Source: Oscillospiraceae bacterium
Lineage (GTDB): Bacteria; Bacillota; Clostridia; Oscillospirales; Acutalibacteraceae
Assembly (NCBI GenBank): GCA_910574935.1
Contig: CAJTCU010000009.1
Coordinates: forward strand, 1 to 64,000
Direction: 5' to 3'
Length of the DNA: 64,000 nucleotides
Shown here piece by piece: positions 41,528 through 55,521 of this stretch (positions are counted from its first letter, which is position 1; each line of letters begins with the position of its first letter). The position numbers and the translations under genes were made by a program. The notes under the pieces are model-generated. The model was not told the DNA's origin and made no database searches. It was given only the letters and a program-made list of their open reading frames with translations.

Positions 41528-41860
41528 TTAGGCATCGTCTTCATGCACAGTCTCTACGCTGCCAATGGCCCAGCGCTTCACCCGCAGCTTTGATTTATCG
41601 CTGCCTGTTTCGATGATTACAGACTCAGACTCATCCTTTACCGCGACGATGCGTCCGCAGATTCCGCCAATGGTAGTAATCTCGTCTCCCACCTGGGCGT
41701 TTTTGCGCATTTCAGCCTCTTTTTTCTTCTTTTTGTTCTGCGGGCGGAAAAAGATAAAATAAAGCGCTACAAAAAACAGGCCATACACCAAAAGCATAAT
41801 GATCAGGCTCATTCCACCGCCCTGTGCCGCCGCCGCGTCCAATAGATTCAGGTTAGACAT
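41528..41860 (-). CDS. yajC: Preprotein translocase subunit YajC
   Basis: 110 aa from the ATG at 41860 (GGAAGGG upstream). One membrane helix (LIIMLLVYGLFFVALYFIFF) is followed by RPQNKKKKKEAEMRKNAQVGDEITTIGGICG, the family signature. It is an accessory part of the Sec/SecDF machinery. It follows tgt as in many bacteria. Confidence 0.95.
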   Translation of the reverse strand: MSNLNLLDAAAAQGGGMSLIIMLLVYGLFFVALYFIFFRPQNKKKKKEAEMRKNAQVGDEITTIGGICGRIVAVKDESESVIIETGSDKSKLRVKRWAIGSVETVHEDDA

Positions 41861-41963
41861 TTTGTTTTGTACACATCCCTTCCAATGATTACAACTGATT
41901 ATAGCAGGAAAGCCTGAAACATGCAAGTAAATTTGTAAAAATCCACTTTTGTTTTTCCCACGG

Positions 41964-43094
41964 CTAAATCCGACGGGCCAAGGGCCCTATGTTCGCATTG
42001 AAAAATTCTTCAAAGCGGTCCTGGTCCAGAGCATCACGTATCTGCCGTAACAAATTATTATAAAAAAACAAATTATGCATCACTGTTAACCGCAAGGCCA
42101 GCATTTCTCCCGCCTTGAATAAATGGTGGATATACGCCCGGGTAAAGCGTCTGCACACCGGGCACTGGCAGTTTTCGTCTAGGGGAGCTTGGTCCAAAAC
42201 ATACTTGGCGTTCATCATGTTCCGGCACCCCTGCTGGGTAAAGGCATGACCGTGGCGGGCGTTACGGCTAGGCATGACACAGTCAAACAAGTCCACTCCC
42301 CGGCGGACCGCCTCCAGAATATTGGCCGGGGTGCCCACGCCCATCAGATAGCGGATCTTGTCTTTCGGCATATAAGGCTCAATGGCCTCAATCATAGCGT
42401 ACATTTCTTCTGTGGGCTCCCCTACCGCCAGGCCGCCGATACCATAGCCATCCAACTCCATATCCGCGATGCGCTTCATATGCTCTACCCGCAGGTCTGC
42501 AAAGGTGCAGCCCTGGTTAATGCCAAACAGCAGCTGCTGGGGGTTGAGGGTACCCTCCAGGGCGTTTAGCCGGGCCATCTCTGCCTTGCAGCGTTCCAGC
42601 CAGCGGGCTGTGCGGGCACAAGAATTTTTGGCGTATTGATATTCCGCCGGATTCTCCACACACTCGTCAAAGGCCATAGCAATGGTAGATCCCAGGTTAG
42701 ACTGGATACGCATACTTTCCTCTGGCCCCATAAAAATTTTGTGGCCGTCAATATGGGAGGCAAAGGTGACCCCCTCTTCCCGGATATTCCGAAGCTTGGC
42801 CAAAGAGAACACCTGAAAACCGCCGCTATCGGTAAGCACCGGACCGTCCCAGCCGGTAAACTGCCGCACGCCCCCCAGCTGCTTCACCACCTGGTCTCCT
42901 GGACGCAGGTGCAGGTGATAGGTGTTGCACAGCTGCACCTGGCAGTCCAGCTCTTTCAGGTCATAGGCGGACACCGCCCCTTTAATGGCCCCTGCGGTGG
43001 CCACGTTCATAAAAGCTGGGGTTTGTATCGTCCCATGAACTGTTGAAAACTCTCCCCGCCGGGCTTTGCCAGCATTTTTGATTAGTTTGTACAT
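41964..43094 (-). CDS. tgt: tRNA-guanine transglycosylase (queuine)
   Basis: 376 aa from the ATG at 43094, with AAGGAG. TDSGGFQVFSLAKLR holds the catalytic Asp and substrate pocket, GGLAVGEPTEEM and RYLMGVGTPANILEAV follow. The zinc site CQCPVCRRFTRAYIHHLF is intact. It inserts queuine or preQ1 at position 34 of GUN tRNAs. No queuosine-biosynthesis gene is in the window. Confidence 0.97.
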   Translation of the reverse strand: MYKLIKNAGKARRGEFSTVHGTIQTPAFMNVATAGAIKGAVSAYDLKELDCQVQLCNTYHLHLRPGDQVVKQLGGVRQFTGWDGPVLTDSGGFQVFSLAKLRNIREEGVTFASHIDGHKIFMGPEESMRIQSNLGSTIAMAFDECVENPAEYQYAKNSCARTARWLERCKAEMARLNALEGTLNPQQLLFGINQGCTFADLRVEHMKRIADMELDGYGIGGLAVGEPTEEMYAMIEAIEPYMPKDKIRYLMGVGTPANILEAVRRGVDLFDCVMPSRNARHGHAFTQQGCRNMMNAKYVLDQAPLDENCQCPVCRRFTRAYIHHLFKAGEMLALRLTVMHNLFFYNNLLRQIRDALDQDRFEEFFNANIGPLARRI

Positions 43095-43178
43095 AAAAGA
43101 ACTCCTTATCACAATTTATCTTTTCTGTCATCCAGCTATGGTATCTATCTAATATCAGGGCTGGTCTTTCTCTACATT

Positions 43179-46100
43179 CTAAAATAAGCTCATCTGCTTT
43201 CCTTGCTCTCGGCTCTTCCCCATACGGGCTTCTCCTCTATCAACCAGTTCCTGGGGCAGTTCATGGAGAAACGCGGAAGGCTCTTGGGTATAGGTCAGGA
43301 TTAGTGCCTCCTTTGCCCTGGTAAGGCCCACATAAAACAAGCGGCGCTCTTCCTCCTCATCTGCAAGGTCTTTACCTCCGCTAAAGGGGACCAGCCCTTT
43401 CTTCGCCCCATAGAGCATCACCACCGGGAATTCCAGCCCCTTTGCGCCGTGAAGCGTCATTAAAGTAACCGCCCCTGCTTTATACTGTTTTCCTCCACAG
43501 CGTTTTAGGTCGCCCTCTGTTCCAGTCTCCAGAGCTTCCAAAAGCTCCGGCATCTCCTGATAAAAAATCGCGGTTTGATGCAGCTTTTCCATTTCCTTTT
43601 TCTGTTCCAGCTTCATCTCTTTCATCCATTCCTCCAAAAGCTTTTGGGGCTTTTTCCGGTTTAGCTGTGGTTTATACTTTTCTGCCAGCGCCCCATAAAA
43701 GTCCATTGCCGCGTTTTCCTGCTCTCCTTTCCACAAAAGCCTCTGGGCCGTCTGGACGGCCAGCCTATCCTCTGGCCGTAACAGGGCCTTGAAAAAACAG
43801 ATGGTCCCCCGCACGGTCTCTTCTTCCAAAAAGGAGTCCCGACCCGCCACCACGTAGGGAATCCCCTCTCTGGTCAGGCATTCTTCCAGCAGCCCGGCCT
43901 GGCGGTGGGTCCGGTACAGCACGGCAATGTCCTCAAATCCCCAAGCGTTCCCCTCTCTTGCAGGGAACAGCTCTTGGGCCTCCAGCATCCCAATTCCTCC
44001 AGCAAGACGGTTGATCTCCTTTGCCACAAAAATGGCCTCCGCTTTTTCGCTATCCGCCTCTATCACCCGGACTGCCGCGCCCTTGGGCCGGTGGGGGCGC
44101 AGGCTCCTTTTCCCGCCCGGATTGTGAGAGATTACCTGGGCGGCCGCTGCCAGAATTTGTGGTGTAGAGCGGTAATTTTCCTCCAGGACAACCTGGAACG
44201 CCTCTGGAAAATCTTCTATAAGCTTCTGAAAACATCTGGCGTCCGCCCCTCGAAACCCATAAATTGCTTGGTCCTGGTCGCCAATGACAAATAGCTCTCT
44301 GCCACCTTGGTTCCATGCTTGGAGCAGTTGGTATTGCAAGGGACTAATGTCCTGAAACTCGTCCACCAGGAGATAAGAAAACGAATTAAGCCCCTTGCTT
44401 CCCCTTTGAAGATTTTCTTTTTTAGCCATATCCAGCGCTTTTAGCAAAATGTCGTCAAAATCCAAAACGCCCCACTCTCTCAGGCTGTTTTCATACGCCT
44501 CCCATATCTTTTCATCCAAAGCGGCCGTCTGCTGGTACATTTCATTTTTATAATTCGATATTTGGGTAAGAAGCTGGGTTGCGGACTGTTTCAGCTTATA
44601 TTCCTTTCGTATTTTTTCGGCAAGTTCTCTCGTCTCCATCTCTCCTGCCAGAGAAAACTCTATACACTGGTCTTTTAAGAGCTTCCATGCAATAGAGTGG
44701 AAACTTCCCACCTGTAGCCTTTTCGCCGCTGCCCCTCCCAGCTGCTTCTGAATCCGTTCCCGCAGTTCTTTAGCCGCTTGGTTGGTAAAAGTTACCGCCG
44801 TGATGCAGGAGGGTTTTACCCGCCTAGTCTCTATCAAATGGAGAATGTGTCCAGCCAATGTTCCCGTCTTTCCAGTACCAGGCCCGGCCTTTACCACAGT
44901 AACCCGCTGGATAGACTCAATGGCCTGCCGTTGCTTTTCATTCCAAACAGGTTCTTTTCCCATGCTCTTTTCAGGCGAAACCGCTAAAACGCCGCTGAGA
45001 TTCTTGGCATTTCTCATAGACAGCGCGGGGGCCTTTACGTTTTGCGGCTCGTCTGCTCTCTCCAAATTCCCACTATGCTTTGACGGAGTTTCCTCCGGCA
45101 TATCCGCTTGTCCTTCAAACAAGCTTATCTGCCCATCCAGCCGCTGGATTTCCCCGGGCGCAAAAAGGCGGAGGCTCCCGTATTCACCGTCAAAGCCGGG
45201 CCGCCATGTCACCTTGCCTTTCCTTAAGCGCCCCACCCCTTCTGCAATCCGCTTTTCAGATACTCCAGAGATTTCTTCCAAGGGAATCTCCCTCAGGATG
45301 GAAAACTCAGACCCCAGTTTTCGAAGCATGGTCTGATATATTTTCCCCACTTTAACACTGGCTGGGGAATACCCTAAAGACGCGCCGATCAGCTCTGGCA
45401 ACGGAACCAGGCTTTCAAACCCCACTGCCTGTGATCTCTGGTACCCCTCCGGACGGTCCGCCAGCTGCTCAATACGGTGGGAGACTCCTATGGTCAGCTT
45501 TCGGCCGCATACCGGACAAATCCCTCCATATTTTATCGTCTCAGAGGGCGAAAGACAGAGTCCGCATTTTCGGTGTCCATCGTAGTGATATTTCCCTTCC
45601 TCAGGAAAAAACTCAATCGTTCCCACCAGGCCTTGCCCGGTCTGAATGGCTTTTCTTAGGGCCTCATAGGACAGATTTATATCCAAAAGATTTGCCTCTC
45701 TGCCCAGCTTTGCTGGTGAGTGGGCGTCCGAGTTGGAAAGGAGCTGGTAATGGTCCAAGGCCGAAACCCGCCAGTTCATAGGAGGATCTGAGGAAAGCCC
45801 TGTTTCCATGGCACAGATATAACGCGACAGATCGCCAAAGCATTCCTCCACGGAATCAAAACCGGAAAACGCCCCAAACAAAGAAAAATGCGGGGTCCAG
45901 ATATGAGCTGGAACATAAACAGCATCTGGGCAGATCTCTAAAAGGATCTCCAGCAGATCGTGGCAATCCAGTCCTAGTATAGGCCTGCCGTCAGAATGAA
46001 TATTCCCTATGGTCTCCAGCTTGCAAGCAACCTGTTCCGCCTCCTCCAGCCCAGGCAGCAGAATCAGGCTATGTACTTTCCGGACCCGACCATTCTTTTT

Positions 46101-46379
46101 ATAGATGGAACTGATTTCTCCTGTAATGACAAAGCGCGGCTGTATGCCCCCCATATCCGTATGAATCCGATGCTCTTTTTTCAGCACATAAAGTCCGTCT
46201 TCCGCTGGCTCCAGCTTTTCTGCTAGCTCCTGCCGCCATGCCGGGTGCGTGAAGTCCCCGCTTCCGACAATACCAATTCCTTTACGCCGGGCCCACAGGT
46301 CTAAATATTCCGGTGCGCAGTCCTTACTGGTTGCGCGGGAATAGTGGGAATGAATGTGTAAGTCCGCAATATAATTCAT
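43179..46379 (-). CDS. EndoQ-like PHP endonuclease fused to UvrD/Rep helicase
   Basis: 1066 aa. Residues 1-330: PHP domain with metal motif DLHIHSH (6-12), further ligands in DFTHP and SNSDAHS, and a zinc knuckle C272-x2-C275 / C288-x2-C291; this is the endonuclease Q family, which nicks DNA 5' of deaminated bases in characterised archaeal members. Residues 330-420 complete the EndoQ unit and end with QISLF (417-421). A linker leads to a full superfamily 1 helicase: Walker A AGPGTGKT (498-505), DEFQD, GDQDQAIYGFRGAD, HGAKGLEFPVV and VGLTRAKEAL. The protein ends in QMSLF. Both pentapeptides fit the bacterial sliding-clamp binding consensus. It probably couples incision at deaminated bases to strand unwinding at the replisome. 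It heads the run leading to tgt. Confidence 0.9.
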   Translation of the reverse strand: MNYIADLHIHSHYSRATSKDCAPEYLDLWARRKGIGIVGSGDFTHPAWRQELAEKLEPAEDGLYVLKKEHRIHTDMGGIQPRFVITGEISSIYKKNGRVRKVHSLILLPGLEEAEQVACKLETIGNIHSDGRPILGLDCHDLLEILLEICPDAVYVPAHIWTPHFSLFGAFSGFDSVEECFGDLSRYICAMETGLSSDPPMNWRVSALDHYQLLSNSDAHSPAKLGREANLLDINLSYEALRKAIQTGQGLVGTIEFFPEEGKYHYDGHRKCGLCLSPSETIKYGGICPVCGRKLTIGVSHRIEQLADRPEGYQRSQAVGFESLVPLPELIGASLGYSPASVKVGKIYQTMLRKLGSEFSILREIPLEEISGVSEKRIAEGVGRLRKGKVTWRPGFDGEYGSLRLFAPGEIQRLDGQISLFEGQADMPEETPSKHSGNLERADEPQNVKAPALSMRNAKNLSGVLAVSPEKSMGKEPVWNEKQRQAIESIQRVTVVKAGPGTGKTGTLAGHILHLIETRRVKPSCITAVTFTNQAAKELRERIQKQLGGAAAKRLQVGSFHSIAWKLLKDQCIEFSLAGEMETRELAEKIRKEYKLKQSATQLLTQISNYKNEMYQQTAALDEKIWEAYENSLREWGVLDFDDILLKALDMAKKENLQRGSKGLNSFSYLLVDEFQDISPLQYQLLQAWNQGGRELFVIGDQDQAIYGFRGADARCFQKLIEDFPEAFQVVLEENYRSTPQILAAAAQVISHNPGGKRSLRPHRPKGAAVRVIEADSEKAEAIFVAKEINRLAGGIGMLEAQELFPAREGNAWGFEDIAVLYRTHRQAGLLEECLTREGIPYVVAGRDSFLEEETVRGTICFFKALLRPEDRLAVQTAQRLLWKGEQENAAMDFYGALAEKYKPQLNRKKPQKLLEEWMKEMKLEQKKEMEKLHQTAIFYQEMPELLEALETGTEGDLKRCGGKQYKAGAVTLMTLHGAKGLEFPVVMLYGAKKGLVPFSGGKDLADEEEERRLFYVGLTRAKEALILTYTQEPSAFLHELPQELVDRGEARMGKSREQGKQMSLF

Positions 46380-46902
46380 TGAATTCCTCTTTCACTCTAT
46401 CATGCGCTTCTCAAGAAAAACTTTTGAATAACTATTTTCTTCATGGCCACACCGATACGATGTGTTCGAACATGAATCTTCTGAAAAGAATTCTGTTCTA
46501 CGCATAGCACGAATATTGCATTTGGAAAAAACGAGCGGTGCGGGGACACCTTCCCTGCACCGCTTTTCTGTACCTTTAAATAATAGCAGATTGAGATGTA
46601 AAAGTCAATACAATGAGAAAATTTTGTGTTTGTAGCCAAGGCGGTTTTTATTCGCATCTACAGCATCTACCTTTTTCGCTATAGATGCGGCTCTAGCTGC
46701 CATAGCTCCACAGCACTCCCCCTCTGTGGAGTGAGTTGGCGTGTACCACAGGGCTCCCGCGCAAATTCATGGGCAGATGACAGCAAGTTCCATAATCCCC
46801 CGCACGGTCATCGAGTCTGGCTTGCCAGGGCCGGGTCAAAGGTCATGTTGGTTGCTTCGCCTGCTTTCCTCACCTCTCTGTTCACGCGGGTTTTATGCCT
46901 GG
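46380..46902. other. Non-coding or decayed stretch
   Basis: Besides the terminator and the promoter region of the fusion gene, 46620-46900 contains only short frames on both strands with no recognised domain. Base composition is patchy and looks like eroded coding DNA. No RNA gene was recognised. Confidence 0.4.
46531..46568. terminator. Hairpin terminator, upstream of the fusion gene
   Basis: Arms AGCGGTGCGGGGA and TTCCCTGCACCGCT with a CACC loop. T-rich tracts on both strands (CTTTTCT and CGTTTTTTCC). It probably ended a gene now lost from the decayed region to the right. Confidence 0.75.
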
Positions 46903-49404: not shown

Positions 49405-49992
49405 ATGAATAACGAAGAGAAAATTTTGAGCATATTGGAAAAGATGGATACGCAGTTTAACCAGATCGATGGGCGGTTTAACCAAATAGACGAGCACTTC
49501 AACCAAATAGACGAGCGCTTCAACCAAATAGACGAGCACTTCAACCAAATAGACGAGCGCTTCAACCAAATAGACGAGCAGTTCGGCCAAATTGACGAAC
49601 ACTTCAACCAAATAGACGAGCAGTTCGGCCAAATAGACGAGCGCTTCAACCAAATAGACGAGCAGTTCAACCAAATTGACAAGCGCTTCAACCAAACAGA
49701 CGAACGCTTCAACCAAATAGACGAACGCTTCAACCAAATAGACGAACGCTTCAACCAAATAGACGAGCAGTTCAGCCAAATAGACGAGCAGTTTAACCAG
49801 ATGGACGTACGGCTTAGCAATCTGGAACAAGGGCAGGGGGAAACTAACGCCAGGCTATCTCACATGGAAGAGGAGGTAGATATCATTAAAGAGGATACTG
49901 CCATTACTCGCACGGCAACCAATACTCTGTTGGATTGGGCAGAGCAGGCAGAAGTGCAGATCAAGATACCTCTTTATCGCAAAGCAGAATAA
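49405..49992 (+). CDS. Coiled-coil protein of 17 near-identical heptads
   Basis: 195 aa with AGAAAGGGA upstream. Residues 1-17 lead into seventeen heptads of the form FNQIDER/H/Q (18-136) coded by 21-bp DNA repeats. An acidic helix follows, then a conserved-looking tail: EEEVDIIKEDTAITRTATNT and LLDWAEQAEVQIKIPLYRK. F and I at heptad positions a and d predict a long parallel coiled coil of about 18 nm. Similar short-start/variable-coil/conserved-tail proteins occur in Clostridia, usually of unknown function. Because the unit is 21 bp, copy number can change without breaking the frame. It is the only intact gene in the decayed region. Confidence 0.8.
   Translation: MNNEEKILSILEKMDTQFNQIDGRFNQIDEHFNQIDERFNQIDEHFNQIDERFNQIDEQFGQIDEHFNQIDEQFGQIDERFNQIDEQFNQIDKRFNQTDERFNQIDERFNQIDERFNQIDEQFSQIDEQFNQMDVRLSNLEQGQGETNARLSHMEEEVDIIKEDTAITRTATNTLLDWAEQAEVQIKIPLYRKAE
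49456..49812 (+). repeat. Tandem repeat, 17 units of 21 bp
   Basis: Unit consensus TTCAACCAAATAGACGAGCRC (with R/C/A variants at the end). Units near the centre are identical over 18-21 bp, while first and last units are more diverged. The repeat also keeps two antisense frames open across its full length, which is a by-product of the period being a multiple of three. Confidence 0.95.
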
Positions 49993-52282: not shown

Positions 52283-54841
52283 CTATTCTTCACACTTTAC
52301 CCGCTCGGTCAGTGACGCTCTGGTGGCGAGCCGGTATGAAAATTCTGCCGCCACACCACCGATGGCAAATAGGAGAAGCAGAATCCCCACCGCGGGCAGG
52401 GATATGGCGGAAACTTTCACGTCGAATACCCGCGCCAGCAGCGCGTTGGATAAAGCTGACCCAACTACAAATGCCGCAAGCCCGAACACCCCGCCCGCGC
52501 TGTTCTCATACACCATCATCCGGCGCAGCTGCCCGCGGGTCATGCCCACGGTCTCCAGCATGGCGAACTCCCTCCGCCGCAGCACCGTGGAGGTGAGGGC
52601 GCTGTTCACCATGTTCATGAGCCCAATTAGGAAGATGATTCCGCAAAGGCTGTAGCCGGTAAGCTGGATGGCCCCCAGCCGTTCCTGCAATGCTTTCATG
52701 TTGGTGAGCTTGCCGCCCACAAGATACTCGAACCTGGTGTCGCCGGAGCCCACGCCGCGCCCCTCTGTCAGGGCCTGAACTTCTTTCAGTAGCGCATCTT
52801 CCATGCCCTCTTTCGCGTTCACGAGTACCGTGAACGCCGGGGCGTCCGGGAACTCCCTCTCAAAGACGCTCTCGGGCAGCAGGAAAAACATTTCCTCCAC
52901 ACCGGCGGAGTTCGCCGTGAGTCTTCCGCAAATCTTTCCCAGCGCCGTCCAGAGGCCGGAGGGCAGCTCCAGGTGAATAACCCGATAATCCTTGCTAAGG
53001 TTGTCTGAGGAGAGCGCGTCTCCGGAGGAAAGGCGCAGATTCAGATAGGCCGTCAGCCCGTCGCTTTCCGTGGAAACACAGAATACGTGCCGGCCGTCGT
53101 ACAGTTCCTCTCCGTCATAGTAAGCTGGATTGAGCCTGTCTTCCTGGGACACGATGATTTCCCGGCAGAGCTCGTCAGGGAGGGAGAGAACTGCGGCTTT
53201 TACACTGCCGGTGTCAAGAATATGCTGGTATTCCTTCCGCACAAAGTCGTATTCCGACCCCGTCATAAAGTCCCTGATTTCCTCCGCCAGCCCGGGGGTG
53301 ATGTCCGCGTCAATCTGTTGGAAGCGCAGGAGCCGCGTTTCCTCCACGTTGTCAGAGCTGGCAAGGCTATCGAGGATATCCGGCTCCACCGCCACGAATT
53401 TTGAGATTTTTGTCAGCTCCTCGGGGATAAGGCCATTGCGGCCCCCGTCCCACAGCCCCAGCTCCACGTCAAACATCCCCAACTGTTTTCCGCCAATCAT
53501 CGTGTCAATTTCCGTGAACGCACCCACTAATATAAACAGCAGCACGGACACCACCGCCGAGAGGGAAGTGACCAGCATCCGGCCACGGCTTCGACGCAGC
53601 CCCGCCATAGCCAGGCTTCTGGGGGAGGCGGGGGCTTCCCTGCGCTTTTCCTTTTTGGGAGCTTTGCTTTCCAGTTCAGCCGAAACCGACTGTATGGGCG
53701 TCATTTTCTTGATACGCGCCAGGGGCCGGAGCGCCGAGAAGAACAGCGTAAACAGCGTAAGCCCCCCGCTGAGCAGGACAATAATCGGGCTGAACCGATA
53801 GGGCAGCACCTCTCCGCTCATGCTCATAAACACAGGGGCGAGCAGCCGGAACCCAATGAAATATCCCAGCAGAAGCCCCACGGGCAGCGCCCCGCAGGCA
53901 ATAAGCCCGGTCTGCATAAGGGTCAGCTTTTTCATCTGCCTATGGGTCATTCCGATGACCTTCAAGAGTCCGAAGGCGCGCATGTCCTGGGTCAGGGCGA
54001 TGGAATAGACATTGTAGATGAGCAAAAACGCCGCAAAGAACAGCACCCCTATCACCAGGAGCATCATCAGGACAATATCCGGCTGGAGGAGGTTGCCCAA
54101 ATCCGCGGCGACAAAGGCGTAGTTGATTTGGCTGCGCCGCTCCTCACCGGGGGTCTCCCACTGTGACAGCCGCTCCACCACTGCGTCCAGCCGCCGGTCT
54201 ATTCCGAAGCTGCTGTGAAACTGCACTATGACGCTCAGTTCCAATTCCTCCGCCACGTGCTCCCCATACAGCGCTACCGCCGGGGGCGGCACGTCCGCGT
54301 CGCTGTGGTAGAAGCCGGAAACGGTGTAGGTTCTCTCCATCGGTTCCGCAACCTTTACGCTCTTAATGAAAAACCGGACCTGGTCGCCAATGGAAAGCGT
54401 GGGGAACACCTCCCGGCAGAGCAGAGTCTCATCCGCCCCTTGGGGGAACCGGCCCTCGGTCAGTGTCATGAACAGGTGGGGGAGAATCTTCTCGCGGTCC
54501 ACAAAAACCATACCAAAGTCTTGCTCTACGTCGTTCGCCTCCGCCGGTTCCACCCAGCGCACAGGCTCAAAGGACATCAGAAATGTCTCCGAAACCTCGG
54601 GGGCTCTTTGAATTTCCTCCCGCAAGGCTTCCCCGGAGATAGAATATCCCATATCAAAAATGGAGGCGTGGATGTCGGAGCCAGACGCCAACATTTTGGA
54701 GAGCTGGATGGAATCCACGAGACAATACGCAATACTAATGACTGTCATGTACAGCACCGCAGCGAGAACTACCGCCACGGCAACAAATGTGGTGCGCATC
54801 CGATGGGAGCTTATCTGCAAGCGTGCAAGCCGGAAAATCAT
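52283..54841 (-). CDS. FtsX-family ABC transporter permease
   Basis: 852 aa. N-terminal helix (about 17-40), a large extracytoplasmic domain, three helices (about 255-390), a second helix and extracytoplasmic domain (about 425-720), and three last helices (about 735-835). Both halves hold an FtsX/MacB core: FLLIYNVYSIALTQDMRAFG with LLKVIGMTHRQMKKL, and MVNSALTSTVLRRREFAMLE with TVGMTRGQLRRMM. This doubled layout is usual for Clostridia permeases adjacent to two-component systems; they export or release peptides/lipids from the envelope. The start overlaps the ATPase gene stop by 4 nt. Confidence 0.93.
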   Translation of the reverse strand: MIFRLARLQISSHRMRTTFVAVAVVLAAVLYMTVISIAYCLVDSIQLSKMLASGSDIHASIFDMGYSISGEALREEIQRAPEVSETFLMSFEPVRWVEPAEANDVEQDFGMVFVDREKILPHLFMTLTEGRFPQGADETLLCREVFPTLSIGDQVRFFIKSVKVAEPMERTYTVSGFYHSDADVPPPAVALYGEHVAEELELSVIVQFHSSFGIDRRLDAVVERLSQWETPGEERRSQINYAFVAADLGNLLQPDIVLMMLLVIGVLFFAAFLLIYNVYSIALTQDMRAFGLLKVIGMTHRQMKKLTLMQTGLIACGALPVGLLLGYFIGFRLLAPVFMSMSGEVLPYRFSPIIVLLSGGLTLFTLFFSALRPLARIKKMTPIQSVSAELESKAPKKEKRREAPASPRSLAMAGLRRSRGRMLVTSLSAVVSVLLFILVGAFTEIDTMIGGKQLGMFDVELGLWDGGRNGLIPEELTKISKFVAVEPDILDSLASSDNVEETRLLRFQQIDADITPGLAEEIRDFMTGSEYDFVRKEYQHILDTGSVKAAVLSLPDELCREIIVSQEDRLNPAYYDGEELYDGRHVFCVSTESDGLTAYLNLRLSSGDALSSDNLSKDYRVIHLELPSGLWTALGKICGRLTANSAGVEEMFFLLPESVFEREFPDAPAFTVLVNAKEGMEDALLKEVQALTEGRGVGSGDTRFEYLVGGKLTNMKALQERLGAIQLTGYSLCGIIFLIGLMNMVNSALTSTVLRRREFAMLETVGMTRGQLRRMMVYENSAGGVFGLAAFVVGSALSNALLARVFDVKVSAISLPAVGILLLLFAIGGVAAEFSYRLATRASLTERVKCEE

Positions 54842-55521
54842 TTTGCCACCTCCCCGCTGTCGGACACAATGCGCCCATCTTCAATACGGATGCGCCGGGC
54901 GGTCATCTGCGCCAGCTCCTCGTTATGGGTTATCATTAAAATGGTCTGGGAGAACTCCCGGTTCAGCTTCTCCAAAAGGAGCATAACCTCCAGGCTGGTC
55001 TTGCTGTCCAGGTTTCCGGTGGGTTCGTCCGCGAGAACGATGTGGGGCTTTGTGGCCAGCGCCCGGGCAATCGCCACCCGCTGCTGCTGTCCGCCGGAAA
55101 GCTGGGAGGGCAGGGCATACCGTTTTTCGTAAATGCCAAGAGTGGAGAGAAGCTGCCCGGTTTCCTCCCGGTTGGCCTTCAGCTTATCCAGCCCCATGGG
55201 CAGCACCACGTTCTCCCAGACGTTCAGGCCGGGGATCAGGTTGTAGCTCTGGAACACAAAGCCGATATAGCGCCGCCGGAAAACCGTCAGCGGGTCGGGG
55301 GCAAGAGAGTAGAGGTCTGTGCCGTCGATGGTCACGGTACCCTCGGTGGGGACGTCGATGCCCCCCAGCAGGTGCAGAAGCGTACTCTTGCCGCTGCCAC
55401 TGGAGCCTACCACAGAGACAAATGCCCCCCGCTCCACAGACAGAGTTAATCCGTCCAACGCCCGCAGCGCGTTCTCTCCGCTTCCAAAAATCTTTGTCAG
55501 TTGATTCGTTTGTATGAGCAT
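54838..55521 (-). CDS. ABC transporter ATP-binding protein (MacB/LolD/Bce type)
   Basis: 227 aa. Walker A GSSGSGKSTLLHLLGG (about 37-52), Q loop FVFQSYNLIPGLNVWENV, signature LSGGQQQRVAIARAL, Walker B HIVLADEPTGNLDS. This is the subfamily that drives FtsX-type permeases. It probably energises the permease encoded immediately after. An RBS GGAAAGGAG precedes the start. Confidence 0.96.
   Translation of the reverse strand: MLIQTNQLTKIFGSGENALRALDGLTLSVERGAFVSVVGSSGSGKSTLLHLLGGIDVPTEGTVTIDGTDLYSLAPDPLTVFRRRYIGFVFQSYNLIPGLNVWENVVLPMGLDKLKANREETGQLLSTLGIYEKRYALPSQLSGGQQQRVAIARALATKPHIVLADEPTGNLDSKTSLEVMLLLEKLNREFSQTILMITHNEELAQMTARRIRIEDGRIVSDSGEVAK

Follow-up and report, generated by a model that had tools for sequence, protein, structure and literature searches.

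We analysed a 64,000-nucleotide stretch of DNA from an Oscillospiraceae bacterium (GenBank assembly GCA_910574935.1, contig CAJTCU010000009.1, positions 1 to 64,000), referred to here as the window. Positions 43179–46379 of the window are a single open reading frame (ORF) on the minus strand, with an ATG start, that encodes a protein of 1066 amino acids (aa). Its first half resembles EndoQ, a deaminated-base endonuclease, and its second half is a UvrD-like helicase of superfamily 1A (SF1A) (Table 1). A preliminary description of this DNA had proposed a nuclease and a helicase in one 1066-aa chain at these positions; our analysis bears this out and adds the strand, which was missing from that description. 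Two pentapeptides, one closing the EndoQ half and one at the C-terminus, fit the published motif for binding the β sliding clamp, and may tether the protein to it. Among the matches listed, the closest relatives are labelled Lachnospiraceae or Lachnotalea in the named collection, with 72–73% identity.

Table 1. Features of the fusion gene and its protein (residue numbers refer to the protein, positions to the window)
Feature	Position	Strand	Basis
EndoQ–UvrD fusion gene	43179..46379	-	1066 aa plus stop; aligned with 96 other full-length fusions
Shine-Dalgarno-like AAAGAGG	46386..46392	-	From sequence; 6 bases ahead of ATG
EndoQ domain, residues 1–404 (PHP nuclease core, zinc knuckle, C-terminal domain)	45168..46379	-	5zb8 match and Foldseek TM 0.89
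Zinc knuckle C272/C275/C288/C291	45507..45566	-	C272, C288, C291 invariant in 65 sequences
Motif 1, QISLF, residues 417–421, candidate clamp-binding	45117..45131	-	Loose pattern in 96/97 fusions; strict in 49/102
Linker, residues 422–475, predicted disordered	44955..45116	-	pLDDT <50; no invariant or nearly invariant column
UvrD-like SF1A helicase domain, residues 476–1050	43230..44954	-	Pfam; PcrA 1pjr E 5.2e-69; motor residues invariant in 65
Insertion with GG..ML-type signature, residues 785–814	43938..44027	-	Signature in 77/103 family members
Shortened, divergent 2B region, residues 855–969	43473..43817	-	115 residues; limits from anchors chosen in the analysis
Motif 2, QMSLF, residues 1062–1066, C-terminus, candidate clamp-binding	43182..43196	-	Loose pattern in 90/97; strict in 78/103

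The two enzymatic halves

Residues 5–410 match the EndoQ of Pyrococcus furiosus (PfuEndoQ; structure 5zb8) with an E-value of 6.6e-52 and 32% identity, and the predicted model of this part has the EndoQ fold (Foldseek template modelling (TM) score of 0.89 against 5zb8, by target length). In PfuEndoQ, E76, H84 and H139 are essential for catalysis, and H139, G169 and S171 exclude normal A and T (PMC8307549). We took the counterparts of these residues from the alignment with PfuEndoQ and checked them in a 65-row alignment of fusions, made up of this protein and 64 of the 73 available references. E88, H103 and H159, the counterparts of the three catalytic residues, are invariant in all 65 fusions, as are G194 and S196, the counterparts of G169 and S171, and D218, the counterpart of D193 in PfuEndoQ (Asn in the crystal 7k30). 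The four-cysteine zinc knuckle is complete here, but C275 is merely the majority residue across the alignment. The EndoQ half scores below the cut-off of every Pfam model, and automatic annotation therefore probably reports just the helicase.

The helicase half matches the Pfam models UvrD-helicase (residues 479–725) and UvrD_C (886–1032). By sequence its nearest solved structure is PcrA (1pjr), with an E-value of 5.2e-69, and its predicted fold compares with that of Deinococcus UvrD at a TM score of ~0.7 by target length. The SF1A motor motifs are present (Walker A, DExQD and motifs III–VI), and most of their residues are invariant in the 65 fusions; Walker A lies at residues 499–505, DExQD at 673–677 and motif VI at 1013–1021. 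The invariance of the EndoQ active-site residues and of most helicase motor residues makes a dead enzyme unlikely.

The helicase had been described as a full SF1 helicase. This is true of the motor motifs; the 2B region, however, is short, with 115 residues compared with 158–164 in four other UvrD-type proteins (including the PcrA-like protein of the host) and a family median of 138 (76–245, n=103). A 2B domain with a GIG motif, one mark of SF1A helicases, is not found here. A GIG-like motif occurs in nine of the 103 family members and in just two of the four other UvrD-type proteins; hence, it is not a sharp criterion for an SF1A 2B domain. The region of the GG..ML insertion is 25–49 residues long in the 103 family members; three PcrA-type proteins have 14 residues there, and the fourth UvrD-type protein has 25. 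The curated pcrA equivalog model scores 343 bits against a cut-off of 911, which does not identify the fusion as a PcrA/UvrD/Rep orthologue, and the host genome has a separate PcrA-like gene. The fusion thus shares motor motifs and fold with PcrA, UvrD and Rep, but differs from them in its short, divergent 2B region, mostly lacking GIG in the family, in its extra GG..ML insertion, in scores far under the PcrA/UvrD/Rep cut-offs, and in having a terminal clamp-type motif instead of a PcrA-type tail. The 2B domain is regulatory, and UvrD-family monomers are activated by its removal, by dimerization or by a partner such as MutL (PMC13238157). One reading is that the fused nuclease, or the clamp, may replace the partner that usually acts on the 2B domain of the helicase.

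Clamp-type pentapeptides in fused, split and helicase-free EndoQs

The published β-clamp motif is Q-aliphatic-x-[LM]-[FL] (review, PMC11139829). QISLF at residues 417–421 and QMSLF as the last five residues stand where the preliminary description placed them, and both fit this motif in low-confidence segments of the predicted model, as would be expected of a clamp client. Mean pLDDT is 60 for the block 411–420 and 48 for the block 1061–1066; both motifs are therein probably flexible, not buried. The protein contains a third match to the published pattern, QAGLL at 827, that recurs in few relatives. In 20,000 shuffles of the protein, Q[AVILM]x[LM][FL] averages 0.33 occurrences, with two or more in 4.2% and a protein-terminal occurrence in 0.03%; the mere presence of the pattern is thus weak evidence. 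The tighter pattern Q[LIM][SD]LF averages 0.0033 occurrences, versus two observed. Among the 94 stop-to-stop frames of at least 150 codons in the window, many of which are not genes, this frame is the only one with a C-terminal clamp pattern. The host genome has dnaN, and its PolC ends in QVTLF. The PolC of B. subtilis carries at this place QLSLF, whose binding to the clamp has been measured (PMC12309361), so the host probably uses a clamp tail of this kind.

At least 584 of 592 stretches scanned encode relatives, and 80 loci, with several phylum labels, were kept. From these and the family-search loci we collected 97 full-length fusions, this one included, in which the match runs from query residue 10 or earlier to 1025 or later; partial loci (L025, L034, L061, L073 and L109–L112) and split loci were excluded. 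A loose pattern, Q-x-x-[LMFI]-[FLYIMV], is found at the internal site in 96 of the 97, at the C-terminus in 90 and at both in 89, compared with ~4% of 15-residue windows drawn at random from these proteins, a null that ignores their relatedness. The 97 include near-duplicates (L032/L090 and L043/L102); in a set of 78 fusions at 75% identity, the loose pattern is found internally in 77, C-terminally in 73 and at both sites in 72. An intermediate pattern is found in 67/97 internally and 76/97 C-terminally, with a null of ~1%. The loose patterns were picked after viewing the alignment, whereas the strict pattern was taken from the review. Seven fusions lack the loose C-terminal pattern (L024, L035, L047, L057, L062, L077 and L082), and in four of them (L024, L057, L062 and L082) the frame ends within two bases of the end of the available sequence.

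The strict published pattern separates the two sites. It is found in 49 of 102 fused rows at the internal site and in 78 of 103 at the C-terminus (these rows include partial ones and L152), making the C-terminal motif the stronger clamp candidate. In the 65-row alignment, Q417 is the sole nearly invariant column between G401 and Q483, and Q1062, L1065 and F1066 are the sole nearly invariant columns after F1037. Both pentapeptides are therefore conserved among homologues in the loose sense; of the two clamp motifs originally predicted, the C-terminal one is the firmer and the internal one the weaker.

The tails of EndoQs that lack a helicase are different. We compared 46 phylum-search loci (30 + 16), of which L152 proved to be a fusion and L153 and L154 lack the landmark, leaving 43. 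The 45 rows classed as unlinked include two fusion pieces, L111 and L112, and removing them likewise gives 43; L038, L110, L153 and L154, without the landmark, are unscored. We call an EndoQ “helicase-free” when neither its frame nor the flanking sequence read, short in some loci, matches a helicase. Motif 1 is found in none of the 43 helicase-free Bacillota EndoQs scored, all of which end within ~25 residues of the last domain. In three loci with titles naming Nitrospirae, Deltaproteobacteria and Peregrinibacteria (L065, L067 and L076), EndoQ and helicase are separate adjacent frames. Here the last five residues of EndoQ are a loose form of the motif (QGTLF, QTMLF or QLEMF); those of the helicase are QMGLF, QMKLF or QLTIW, of which QLTIW fits poorly.

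We placed 100 EndoQ domains in a quick tree with SH-aLRT support and a midpoint root, in which a meeting of long branches is flagged (L157). Fused and split EndoQs, together with eight helicase-free ones, lie on one side (63 rows) of a long supported branch; the remaining 37 helicase-free EndoQs lie on the other. Linkage to a helicase agrees with the presence of motif 1 in 99 of the 100 rows, the exception being L070, which has a fused helicase but no Gln at the site.

Some genomes carry more than one form. In G200, one contig (C112; L151, L152) carries two EndoQ copies of the same clade ~10 kb apart, one fused and one helicase-free, and G346, G379 and G477 each have a long and a short EndoQ frame. 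At L111 (G124), the EndoQ and helicase parts are in different frames at the domain junction, which indicates a broken gene or an assembly error.

A possible clamp-directed excision enzyme

What might such a fusion do? We propose, with moderate confidence, that it excises deaminated bases as a single-chain enzyme directed by the clamp. The C-terminal motif, probably aided by the internal one, would dock the protein onto the DnaN clamp. The EndoQ half would flip out a uracil, hypoxanthine, xanthine or abasic site and nick 5ʹ of the lesion, leaving a 3ʹ-OH and a 5ʹ-phosphate on the lesion strand; the lesion would then sit at the 5ʹ end of the strand downstream of the nick. The helicase half would load at the nick on the intact strand, track along it 3ʹ to 5ʹ, as SF1A helicases do, and peel off the lesion-bearing strand as a 5ʹ flap. 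A clamp-bound polymerase could then extend the 3ʹ-OH, and a flap nuclease and ligase would finish the repair. In MutH/MutL/UvrD mismatch excision a nick is likewise followed by unwinding by a UvrD-type helicase. The fusion differs in having no MutH or MutL part and in being one chain, and its nick would be set by the deaminated base.

EndoQ cleavage is reported to leave 3ʹ-OH and 5ʹ-phosphate ends (PMC4357722). As the preliminary description noted, archaeal EndoQ works with PCNA, which stimulates it through its PIP box (PMC4858679); this makes clamp coupling of the nuclease half plausible. EndoQ is described as a stand-alone enzyme in Pyrococcus, Thermococcus, Methanosarcina and Bacillus pumilus, whereas here a helicase with its own terminal motif is on the same chain. 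The fusion shares with these EndoQs whole-length similarity (to PfuEndoQ), the catalytic and base-selection residues, the zinc knuckle and, following that C-terminal domain, a clamp-type motif, which is a PIP box in archaea and is also noted in bacterial homologues (PMC4858679). The sequence itself shows the fusion, its conserved active sites, and its conserved motifs in their low-confidence settings, and papers on relatives describe the EndoQ cut and its ends, stimulation by PCNA and the binding of such pentapeptides to the clamp. We infer the steps that would join these, including the strand that the helicase tracks. The earlier idea of a clamp-tethered protein that nicks and then unwinds is thus supported in part, by motif conservation, the probably flexible segments and the invariant EndoQ residues; where it falls short is the internal motif, often outside the strict definition.

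If this proposal is true, the fusion would show one route by which an EndoQ cut becomes excision, and mutations in its two pentapeptides would allow nicking, unwinding and clamp tethering to be dissected within one chain. We found no description of an EndoQ–helicase fusion in the open-access papers searched, and an earlier mention elsewhere is possible. A more elaborate version, which we consider doubtful, is that the two motifs fill both pockets of one DnaN dimer, with nuclease and helicase sharing the clamp through the flexible 54-residue linker, in a glycosylase-free nick-and-peel pathway for deaminated purines in a phylum nearly without EndoV.

Several observations weigh against a clamp-directed excision enzyme. 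Motif 1 often departs from the published motif (e.g. QTSLF, QLSFF and QGALF), and the predicted model draws short helices over both motifs (417–420 and 1059–1065), albeit at low confidence. The arrangement of the domains in the model is uncertain (pTM 0.60). Strong unwinding is not assured, given a short 2B region in which a GIG-like motif is mostly missing. Independent contrasts of helicase linkage and motif 1 are concordant in 4/4 cases, which is not significant (p 0.125); because there are few such contrasts, and because one truncation can remove both helicase and motif, the association is suggestive only. Stand-alone bacterial EndoQ homologues, such as those of B. subtilis and Desulfovibrio, were reported in 2016 to have C-terminal clamp motifs (PMC4858679), weakening any rule that the motif needs a helicase. 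Lastly, the host genome has a uracil-DNA glycosylase (UDG), so uracil repair need not depend on the fusion.

An alternative explanation, which we regard as possible but unlikely, is that the C-terminal motif is the sole working tether, and that the internal one is a leftover of the EndoQ C-terminus, weak or structural, that has been retained for another purpose, for example packing on the helicase. The difference between the sites in fit to the strict motif is consistent with this, as are the short low-confidence helix over the internal motif and the weak binding of the clamp by QMGLF of B. subtilis DnaE (~78 µM; PMC12309361). However, the nearly invariant Q417 is followed by a linker without a conserved column, and in the three unfused relatives EndoQ ends exactly at the motif, as a free C-terminal tail motif would.

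A less probable order of events is that the helicase acts first, or clears proteins or opens DNA at forks or transcription sites, and that the EndoQ half then cuts the exposed single strand in replication- or transcription-coupled repair. PfuEndoQ does cut uracil and hypoxanthine in single-stranded DNA (PMC11354406), and, also in favour of this order, UvrD-family monomers need activation by a dimer or partner through 2B (PMC13238157), a region that is reduced here. Nonetheless, the conserved C-terminus of PcrA binds RNA polymerase (PMC3797733), and no such tail is found on the fusion, which ends without the extra C-terminal tail of the host's PcrA-like protein. Moreover, cutting template single strands would risk breaks.

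It is improbable that the PHP half is not a deaminated-base endonuclease but a nuclease whose substrate has shifted, for example to abasic or oxidised pyrimidine sites, or an exonuclease. Identity to PfuEndoQ is modest at 32%, a long branch separates the fusion clade from most other EndoQs of the Bacillota, and the EndoQ half scores 168 bits with TIGR00375, below the curated NCBIfam cut-off of 326.6. That cut-off is reached in just 1 of 299 genomes of the phylum, so it says little and we do not take it as defining, and the counterparts of the P. furiosus residues that exclude normal A and T are invariant.

Very unlikely, finally, is a Gabija-like defence enzyme that degrades foreign DNA containing uracil or hypoxanthine: Gabija (GajA–GajB) likewise joins a nuclease to a UvrD-like helicase, PADLOC GajB models match the helicase half (the best at 264 bits, along almost the full profile) and a review suggests that bacterial EndoQ may serve antiviral defence (PMC8307549), but the pcrA model outscores GajB (343 vs 264 bits), the fusion is a single chain with tgt as the next gene, and GajA has no match in the EndoQ half or in the nine flanking proteins scanned. 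PADLOC matches are absent from the EndoQ half and from six of the nine flanking proteins; those of the other three (best 99.6 bits, mad3, at 54838–55521, ~8.5 kb away) read as coiled-coil, ATPase and kinase-type cross-matches. The EndoQ half has no match among 72,556 plasmid and 50,697 phage records, as expected for a housekeeping gene, and there is no sign of a conserved operon or defence island, the largest flank cluster comprising 7 of 80 loci (flanks of up to ~4 kb).

Distribution, other repair enzymes and genomic context

The fusion is a widespread design and is not special to the host genome (4.17 Mb, 109 contigs, 99.97% complete). The host is a gut-type bacterium. Within its family, at least 24 of 200 genomes carry the long fusion and pieces of it occur in another four, 28 genomes in all; the search scored the best three candidate places in most genomes, so that 28 is a lower bound. 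The sole other genome of the same genus in the family set has no EndoQ match. Across the phylum, 153 of 299 genomes have an EndoQ-type match (TIGR00375), and in at least 31 of the 153 the match lies in an open frame of ≥982 codons, which we use as a proxy for the fusion. The fused EndoQs on the tree fall under eight phylum labels (Bacillota, Pseudomonadota, Latescibacterota, Gemmatimonadota, Spirochaetota, Chloroflexota, Calditrichota and Bacteroidota); the non-Bacillota rows are metagenome-assembled according to their titles, so single labels may be wrong. Conservation of EndoQ has been reported for some archaea and for a few genera of bacteria (PMC4357722). The eight labels and the 153 genomes contrast with that view.

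EndoV has no match in the host genome or in any of the 200 family genomes. In the phylum it is found in 3 of 299 genomes, none of which has an EndoQ-type match, although three genomes are few. EndoQ-type matches are thus common and EndoV rare in this phylum, whereas published accounts present EndoQ as rare among bacteria. Since EndoV is almost absent, EndoQ may be the main hypoxanthine endonuclease here. We also considered whether the fusion replaces UDG. This was unsupported: in the family, UDG matches occur in 28/28 genomes with the fusion or a piece of it, versus 158/172 others.

Downstream of the fusion gene on the same strand, tgt (41964–43112, minus strand) starts 66 bases past its stop, with the start taken from the ORF tool, and is followed by a frame at 41528–41926 that we take to be yajC. 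A shared transcript of the fusion gene, tgt and the yajC-like frame is possible. Promoter-like sites number 2, against a shuffle mean of 2.7, and terminator-like sites 6, against 4.5 (sd 2.0). On the plus strand, an ORF at 49405–49992 (195 aa) consists mostly of a repeated FNQIDE-like unit, perhaps a coiled coil, and its weak PADLOC matches (≤37 bits) look like coiled-coil cross-matches.

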